Source of the DNA: Pseudomonas koreensis
Lineage (GTDB): Bacteria > Pseudomonadota > Gammaproteobacteria > Pseudomonadales > Pseudomonadaceae
Direction: 5' to 3'
Assembly (NCBI RefSeq): GCF_024169245.1
Contig: NZ_JALJWP010000001.1
Coordinates: forward strand, 2,357,501 to 2,421,500
Length of the DNA stretch: 64,000 bases
The notes under the pieces are model-generated. The model had not been told where the DNA came from and did no database searches. It was given only the letters and a program-made list of their open reading frames with translations. This document shows positions 2,392 through 3,070 of the stretch, piece after piece (positions within the stretch are counted from its first letter, which is position 1; the number at the start of each line of letters is the position of its first letter). The translations under genes were made by a program, and so were the position numbers.

Positions 2392-2766
2392 TCAGCTGTG
2401 TGTCGGGGATTGGTGGATTTCGTAATTATCCAGCACCCGATTCACCGCCAGTTCCGCCAGCATGATTACCTGCTGGATGGCCAATATCGTGTGCCGCTGT
2501 GGGCTGTCGACGTAGGCAGCGATGTCGCTGCTCATGATGCTGGCCGAGGCCAGGGATTCGCAGGCGTGGGCCAGCAGGCTTTCGTTGTCCTGGTCGGGGG
2601 CGACCTGGAACATGGTGCTGGGTCTGTGGCTTTGCTGCGTGCTGGCGGAGGGTTTGAGGTAGTGATCCAGCGCACGCTCGGCGGCGTCGTGGAGTTTTTT
2701 CGAGTCGGGGGATTGGTAGGGTGAGGTGCTTTCGGATTCGGGGGGATTGGGTGTGGGTTTGAACAT
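2392..2766 (-). CDS. DUF6124 (DUF3077-like) small protein
   Basis: This is a 124-residue cytoplasmic protein without a signal peptide. The first 30 residues are rich in Pro and Ser (PTPNPPESESTSPYQSPDSK). They are followed by a likely helical part ending in ILAIQQVIMLAELAVNRVLD. I recognise the layout as that of the Pseudomonas DUF6124/DUF3077 small proteins, whose function is unknown; they often occur in several copies per genome. An AGGA Shine-Dalgarno (2775-2779) precedes the ATG. The gene sits behind an unusually structured 230-bp leader and ends next to a REP pair. Confidence 0.75.
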   Translation of the reverse strand: MFKPTPNPPESESTSPYQSPDSKKLHDAAERALDHYLKPSASTQQSHRPSTMFQVAPDQDNESLLAHACESLASASIMSSDIAAYVDSPQRHTILAIQQVIMLAELAVNRVLDNYEIHQSPTHS

Positions 2767-2774
2767 GGCAAAGA

Positions 2775-2996
2775 TCCTTTTGGATTAATGGAGCTGCCAT
2801 ATTTCGTTTTCCAGGCGAAAGGGGTGGCAGCTGTACGCGGACTGGAAAAACCGGCAAAGGATCAAACCCGGCAGACCCGAAGGTCTCCCACGTACAGCCG
2901 CCATAACTGAATATCGGCGCTGAAAGAGCGCGGCATTATGTCATGTGCTGTGATCCTGCGGGTTTTCCAGACCCGGTCGCTGATTCGTCAGCAACC
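2775..2996 (-). promoter_or_regulatory. Hairpin-rich 5' leader of the DUF6124 gene, candidate structured RNA
   Basis: On the minus strand, upstream of the start codon, these complementary blocks occur: 2988-2996 with 2975-2983 (9 bp, one U-G pair); 2971-2975 with 2959-2963; 2927-2931 with 2917-2921; 2891-2898 with 2830-2837 (8 bp). Also present are 2882-2886 with 2873-2877, closing a C(UUCG)G tetraloop, and 2825-2832 with 2792-2799 (8 bp) plus an inner 2816-2820 with 2802-2806. The last hairpin ends 13 nt before the Shine-Dalgarno. The 8-bp stems share bases 2830-2832, so they compete at their ends. A CATAAT box at about 2937-2942 could be a -10, but I see no convincing -35. Confidence 0.55.
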
Positions 2997-3070
2997 ACCA
3001 AATCCTAGCCAGCGCACTTCCGACGGACAACCTGCAAAACCTGTCGGAAACTTCCTTGTAAACGCGTCCA

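Follow-up and report, generated by a model that had tools for sequence, protein, structure and literature searches.

In type I toxin-antitoxin systems an antisense RNA holds down a small neighbouring protein, and paralogous pairs are kept apart. The antisense RNA C4 was first found in phage P1. In this phage it represses icd and ant, the Icd protein being the one that stops cell division (PMC8198154). In the P1 record, the operator and promoters are followed by a1, b1, C4, a2, b2 and icd. We keep the P1 usage, i.e. a' denotes the C4 strand after hairpin 2 and b' the loop of hairpin 2. Release of C4 by RNase P is known from the work on P1 and A. baumannii as told in PMC5320573, and the latter species also has a many-copy family of C4-like RNAs in one bacterium that is already in print (PMC5320573). 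C4, the c4-a1b1 motif and their occurrence in Proteobacteria have likewise been published (PMC2864571).

Here, we address the leader of a DUF6124 gene in Pseudomonas koreensis. The window, i.e. the whole stretch of DNA that was analyzed, comprises 64,000 nucleotides and belongs to a genome of 5.97 Mb in one contig (subsequently designated own genome). The leader very probably represents a C4 antisense-RNA module that controls this chromosomal gene. At the level of sequence, the module is established by family membership, architecture, covariation, private complementarity and change that is coordinated between species.

The leader of the DUF6124 gene belongs to the C4 family

A scan with 4227 Rfam families yielded a single match above cut-off in the window, which is a complete RF01695 at 2908-2820 on the minus strand. 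A permissive scan added RF03163 (35.8 of 46.7 bits) and an overlapping weak match to isrK (22.9 of 50 bits). By family membership, the leader RNA is therefore a C4 antisense RNA, a known kind. The following features were assigned:

3002-3030, minus strand: promoter-like site TTGTCC - 17 nt - TAGGAT, with a start near 2995 predicted from sequence only
2955-3008, minus strand: c4-a1b1 target leader (RF03163), complete, 35.8 bits, curated cut-off 46.7
2995-2976 and 2975-2959, minus strand: two extra hairpins
2970-2963, minus strand: target a1, CTGGAAAA, 8 nt complementary to a'
2957-2951, minus strand: target b1, AGGATCA, 7 nt complementary to b'
2820-2908, minus strand: C4 antisense RNA (RF01695), 74 bits, cut-off 45, model positions 1-87 of 87
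2830-2837/2891-2898, minus strand: GCTGTACG/CGTACAGC, part of the C4 closing stem
2874-2885, minus strand: C4 hairpin 1, GACC-UUCG-GGUC
2856-2866, minus strand: antisense loop b' (TTTGATCCTTT) of C4 hairpin 2, complementary to b2 over 8 nt and to b1 over 7 nt
2842-2850, minus strand: antisense strand a' (TTTTTCCAG) of C4, complementary over 8 nt to a1 and over 8 nt to a2
2802-2820, minus strand: hairpin TTTCG/CGAAA with target a2 in the loop
2814-2807, minus strand: target a2, CTGGAAAA, a second copy of the a1 letters
2792-2799/2825-2832, minus strand: 8-bp pair AGCTGCCA/TGGCAGCT enclosing the TTTCG/CGAAA hairpin
2792-2799, minus strand: TGGCAGCT, alternative partner of the C4 3' strand (2825-2832), replacing the closing stem
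2773-2780, minus strand: target b2, AAAGGATC, which includes the Shine-Dalgarno sequence AGGA
2392-2766, minus strand: DUF6124 gene, 124 aa, the presumed target (PF19619, 78.9 bits, cut-off 27)

The promoter-like site is thus followed by a1, b1, C4, a2, b2 with the Shine-Dalgarno sequence, and the start codon at 2766. Within this arrangement, the ribosome-site sequence AAAGGATC (2780-2773) is complementary to GATCCTTT of the b' loop (2863-2856), and both copies of CTGGAAAA (2814-2807 and 2970-2963) are complementary to TTTTCCAG of a' (2849-2842). Applied to P1 as a control, the same procedure recovered the annotated sites, with 8 nt at b2 and 7 nt at a2. These key pairs, b' with b2 and a' with a1 and a2, were missing from the list of complementary pairs in a first-pass annotation of this DNA. 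The pairs it did list are present on the minus strand in front of the DUF6124 gene, and its two 8-bp stems do overlap, with 2830-2832 as common bases. It had also held that REPs do not explain the leader, which we can confirm. Behind the DUF6124 gene, at 1843-2390, a REP-like element (gagcctgctcgcgaaggcggcctg and relatives) was recognized by eye in several copies, most of which are arranged in tandem.

The promoter-like site at 3030-3002 scored 8/12, a value that 1/50 shuffles reached at the window locus, and it is absent from the consensus-scan listing. When promoters were scored across the 31 own-genome loci described below, only 2/31 had at most 1/50 shuffles reaching the score. Support for a promoter at the window locus is therefore weak. 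An inverted repeat, TTCCGAC..GTCGGAA, with arms at 3018-3024 and 3043-3049, flanks the -35-like hexamer and possibly represents an operator. Its position is that of the C1 operator in P1, and both arms are seemingly altered in the relative L079.

The leader is strongly structured. The 230-nt leader folds with -94.9 kcal/mol compared to a mean of -70.6 for shuffled sequences (z -5.13; 0/200 shuffles), and the 89-nt C4 alone with -44.4 kcal/mol (z -5.25; 0/200 shuffles). The three-stem C4 fold is present with covarying stems in the 31 own-genome copies: 89.8% of the cells are paired and 12/27 pairs are changed on both sides, giving 75 both-side-changed cells versus 20.0 in shuffles. Sliding the partner columns by 1-3 positions lowered the paired cells to 30-48%. 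Hairpin 2 was poorly aligned in this test (58.6% paired). With regard to possible processing by RNase P, all 31 copies have G-G where the closing stem begins. The hairpin-2 loop is among the most variable parts of C4.

The first-pass annotation implied an undescribed riboswitch or protein-binding leader, and this degree of structure would suit such an element. However, the C4 match is complete, the parts follow a P1-like order, and the hairpin-2 loop, where a conserved pocket would be expected, is one of the parts that vary most. We regard this reading as extremely improbable, and with the Rfam match to C4 an undescribed riboswitch was set aside. What stands from that annotation is a structured, conserved leader RNA of the DUF6124 gene, whose stems are retained in front of related genes and show covariation there. 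Its novelty falls with the Rfam match, since the leader consists of C4, above cut-off, and the c4-a1b1 leader.

Weak matches to isrK overlie the a1b1 leader in the window (2995-2923) and at L011, L016, L020, L024, L029, L033, L035 and L039 (22.9-34.6 bits, cut-off 50). In B. cenocepacia one transcript holds both C4 and isrK (PMC4603805). By these matches, isrK may be an a1b1-type leader.

Most C4 copies of the genome precede a DUF6124 gene

The own genome contains 31 C4 matches, all above cut-off. The gene after C4 belongs to DUF6124 in 28/31 cases and to DUF3077 in one (L014), while two C4s (L036, L040) precede small frames of neither family. Upstream of C4, c4-a1b1 was detected at 30/31 loci at E <= 0.01 (the exception being L040); it exceeds the curated cut-off at 12/31, the window copy lying below. 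Conversely, 29 of the 33 DUF6124 matches in the genome fall within the 28 C4-preceded genes. The remaining four have no above-cut-off C4 directly upstream: the second gene of a tandem pair (4950136), L041 beside PrrF, L042, whose C4 is degraded (27.7 bits), and L043.

Several of these loci deserve mention. At L037 (G000:C1:1334804-1334993) the gene following C4 looks broken, as its DUF6124 match is divided between two frames. L042 (G000:C1:1554943), in which a diverged DUF6124 gene accompanies the degraded C4 and an a1b1 match of 30.6 bits, is perhaps a decaying cassette. The gene at L041 (G000:C1:5083469-5083657), which adjoins the PrrF sRNA and lacks C4, matches DUF6124 with 68.5 bits and also DUF3077 with 33.3 bits, which suggests that the two families are related. 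Five pairs of C4-DUF6124 units (L044, L045, L046, L048, L049), spaced by 4.4-6.5 kb, each flank a frame of 1066-1593 aa, and within two of these pairs both units have the same b' loop. The large frame of L044 contains DUF4011, helicase and MTES_1575 nuclease domains and that of L049 RCC1 repeats; the one of L046 has no Pfam match.

Antisense and target sequences are largely private to each locus

Complementarity was scored as the longest Watson-Crick run of b' with the region 17-62 nt after C4 and of a' with the first 22 nt after C4. In the own genome, runs of at least 7 nt at both sites were found for 19/31 self pairs and for 0/926 non-self pairs; at least 6 nt at both sites were reached by 25/31 self and 15/926 non-self pairs. 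When the two runs were summed, the own target was strictly best at 26 of the 31 loci and best or tied at 30. In a permutation test over the 31 loci, with the loop/strand split failing for L014, the observed mean at each of the four target sites was reached by 0/10000 permutations. Plain duplex energy was rejected as a specificity score: it ranked the own target first at 6/31 loci downstream and 23/31 upstream, and the mean self duplex energy exceeded all 10000 permutations on both sides. Since GC-rich pairs elsewhere dominate the energy ranks, longest Watson-Crick runs in fixed target regions were used.

The same held for a larger collection of own-genome, named and other loci, for 147/149 of which loop and strand could be parsed. 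In these 147 loci, b' matched over at least 7 nt in 98 self pairs versus 3.2% of the non-self pairs, and a' in 126 versus 4.0%. As many as 29 distinct b' loops occur over the 31 own-genome loci. The upstream b1 is looser, matching b' over at least 7 nt at 12/31 loci, and at five loci (L014, L032, L036, L037, L038) the b2 match extends over just 4-5 nt. Among the 25/31 genes whose start was found by pattern, 23 pairs are at least 93% alike over 350 nt, and 21 of these differ in b'. We found no faster change of the code within than between genomes (same loop in 3/47 pairs within and 27/242 between; Fisher p 0.44). Taken together, the codes are largely private to each locus. As nearly every copy has a different a'/b' pair, most C4s should silence their own gene only.

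Coordinated change of the antisense loop and the ribosome-site region in relatives

A search with the window leader provided 30 loci for comparison, the window's own included. Of these, 22 share neighbouring DNA; both the choice of this set, which contains the window copy, and the sorting into four code groups were done by hand. The a' strand and both of its targets are unchanged in 30/30 alignment rows, and b' falls into four groups. In the first group, GATCCTTT is combined with AAAGGATC at the ribosome site. In the second group, L070 and L076 combine TGAGTTGA with TCAACTCA and L066 combines TGGCAAGTTGA with TCAACTTGCCA, in each case just upstream of the ribosome site. Two of eight loci with the second code (L069, L075) match their own ribosome-site region over 5 nt; the loop/strand split failed for L061 and L064 in this comparison.

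Overall, b' matched its own ribosome-site region over at least 7 nt at 27/30 loci, compared with 6/434 combinations with other codes. In the shared-neighbour set the numbers were 20/22 and 1/264, respectively. The b1 copy follows b' more loosely (mean 6.50 for own and 4.02 for other codes). The joint change of b' and the ribosome-site region is the strongest evidence we have, and it points to a pairing that is in use.

This joint change also bears on a different explanation, in which the leader acts in cis as a switch with two exclusive folds chosen by a signal. One fold would contain the C4 closing stem and the other the a1b1-C4 pairing plus the 2792-2799/2825-2832 stem, and release of C4 would be unneeded. 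Indeed, the lowest-energy fold of the 230 nt has a1b1 paired with C4 and contains this stem. However, over the 31 loci the alternative stem is weakly locus-specific (103/10000 permutations, with runs of at least 7 nt at 7/31 loci) when compared to the antisense/target matches (0/10000), and a cis switch leaves the joint change of b' and the ribosome site unexplained. We consider it unlikely that such a switch accounts for the leader, and the two mechanisms can operate together. The first-pass annotation had seen competing stems that behave as switch elements do. Mutually exclusive pairings exist and the whole leader takes the alternative in its lowest-energy fold, but the overlapping repeats, being mostly C4 arms and antisense/target pairs, are no sign of a ligand switch. 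For the antisense mechanism, which we prefer, the pairing of a1b1 with C4 in this fold suggests that the uncut precursor may hold C4 inactive.

Distribution of C4 and DUF6124 in other genomes

Of 99 Pseudomonas genomes, the own genome being one of them, 92 have C4, 78 have DUF6124 and 76 have DUF3077. All 78 DUF6124-bearing genomes have C4, and the seven genomes without C4 lack both families. The count of C4 correlates with that of DUF6124 plus DUF3077 (Spearman 0.94, kinship ignored). Eight of the 99 genomes contain at least 39 C4s, and weak copies were possibly missed in these counts. Three genomes (G003, G009, G051) have at least 5 C4s, yet DUF6124/DUF3077 genes amounting to less than half that number. 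In a sample of 398 genomes of the phylum, DUF6124 occurred in 7 (six of them Pseudomonas; one of the 7 below cut-off) and C4 in 62.

We also picked DUF6124 loci by protein alone, taking the best 80 of 522 by similarity from named Pseudomonas genomes, and searched them with a C4 model built from the own-genome copies. In 79/80, C4 was found 27-69 nt upstream of the gene and on its strand; L169 lacks it, and at L188 it is weak (30.1 bits). On contigs filed as viral, 19 of 23 DUF6124 loci have C4 directly upstream as counted by hand, 11 of which share one score and are probably one sequence. Upstream DNA is missing at L122, and L120, L123 and L132 differ. The viral-filed genes (L121, L124-L131, L133-L142) often lie near a contig end, and one adjoins a chemotaxis-receptor frame; in EU982300.1 (52-405) a DUF6124 relative adjoins the repressor gene prtR. 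The viral-filed loci probably represent host DNA that borders prophages or tailocins. In phage records we found one DUF6124 gene, at the end of the record, and in plasmid records none.

A set of 40 C4 loci from other Pseudomonas and other genera was examined as well, of which 39 fit the own-genome model (L099, found by Rfam, did not). A b' match of at least 7 nt was present in 31/39. These loci precede other small frames and, as judged by eye, also antirepressor-like proteins (L092, L093, L096). As the module stands before varied frames, it is a general one, with DUF6124 as one of its cargoes. A frame type of 52-57 aa (..ALxALxADSSLSxRLxRYNxxMxxAR..) lies behind C4 at L106, L107, L110, L111, L113, L115, L117 and L118 and is apparently another cargo in other Pseudomonas.

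C4-like DNA was also detected in 3 plasmid records and in 4 records of phages, 3 of which are named as Pseudomonas phages. These records would fit a C4 whose main targets are incoming phages or other elements that carry C4-controlled genes, with DUF6124 as a passenger, and the authors of the A. baumannii study weighed an anti-phage role (PMC5320573). Nevertheless, each C4 matches the gene next to it, and the DUF6124 gene is nearly always there, with C4 upstream of 79/80 genes chosen by protein. We therefore judge a mainly defensive function to be quite improbable.

The DUF6124 protein

The DUF6124 protein of the window has 1877 relatives at E <= 0.001. Its predicted structure comprises one helix and a helical hairpin (mean pLDDT 75, pTM 0.47). 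The fold search gave no PDB match at E <= 0.001, the sequence matched solved chains with a best E of 0.26, and PHROGs gave no match. Similarity to P1 Icd was not detected (probability 0.1%). The next same-strand gene behind DUF6124 is a 324-aa frame at 1389-415, 1 kb away, and an antirepressor gene immediately following the window gene was not observed. With DUF6124 unlike Icd and this frame at 1 kb, a P1-type c4-icd-ant immunity operon was ruled out.

Discussion

We propose that a single transcript would start near 2995 and run through a1b1, C4, a2b2 and the DUF6124 gene. C4 would fold within it and would probably be excised by RNase P, as in phage P1; until then, the precursor may keep it inactive. 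On a transcript of this kind, the freed a' would pair with a2 and the freed b' with b2 at the ribosome site, thereby blocking translation of DUF6124, as in P1. Any signal that releases the gene, and the role of DUF6124 itself, would be conjectural additions to this model.

If each C4 acts on the gene directly behind it, a target is suggested for many-copy bacterial C4 RNAs, and the uncharacterised DUF6124 and DUF3077 families gain a likely regulator. Moreover, the 31 parallel antisense/target pairs with 29 loops in one genome provide a natural set on the minimum length of a private RNA code. A bolder and rather doubtful extension is that a Pseudomonas chromosome may carry dozens of mutually 'heteroimmune' C4 cassettes, in which every C4 would recognise its own code alone, with about 29 codes per genome serving as an identity system and DUF6124/DUF3077 as effector. 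The effector would be made only on arrival of a copy with an unmatched code or on loss of its C4. If true, a phage immunity device would have been turned into a chromosomal self/non-self or addiction system.

In the literature searched, as far as it was accessible and with most subscription journals outside its scope, we found no link between C4 and DUF6124. DUF6124 is named nowhere in this literature, and DUF3077 solely in work on furfural tolerance. To that extent, the near-constant pairing of C4 with DUF6124 in Pseudomonas and the adjacent gene as matching target are new, and so are codes that are largely private and change in a coordinated manner.

The module resembles C4 of P1 and P7 (RF01695; c4-icd-ant) in fold, in the order a1-b1-C4-a2-b2-gene, in antisense matches of 7-8 nt and in the position of b2 just before a small gene. 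Unlike in P1 and P7, the Pseudomonas C4s are chromosomal, with 31 copies and 29 different b' loops, and the cargo is DUF6124, which is not Icd-like and, in the window, is not directly followed by a visible antirepressor gene. The c4-a1b1 motif tabulated in PMC2864571 (RF03163) is shared by 30/31 own-genome C4s at E <= 0.01, whereas 12/31 copies, and not that of the window, reach its curated cut-off. The group 1 C4-like sRNAs of A. baumannii are similar in being many per genome, in their variable antisense loop and in the apparent processing reported for them (PMC5320573). The available part of that report names no target genes, whereas in the present case the target that matches is the adjacent gene; unlike in group 1 as presented there, the variable loop finds its match at the ribosome site. 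Finally, the likeness to type I toxin-antitoxin systems concerns the way of working only, i.e. the proposed control of a small neighbouring protein by an antisense RNA, while C4 lies on the same strand as its target and would come from the same transcript.
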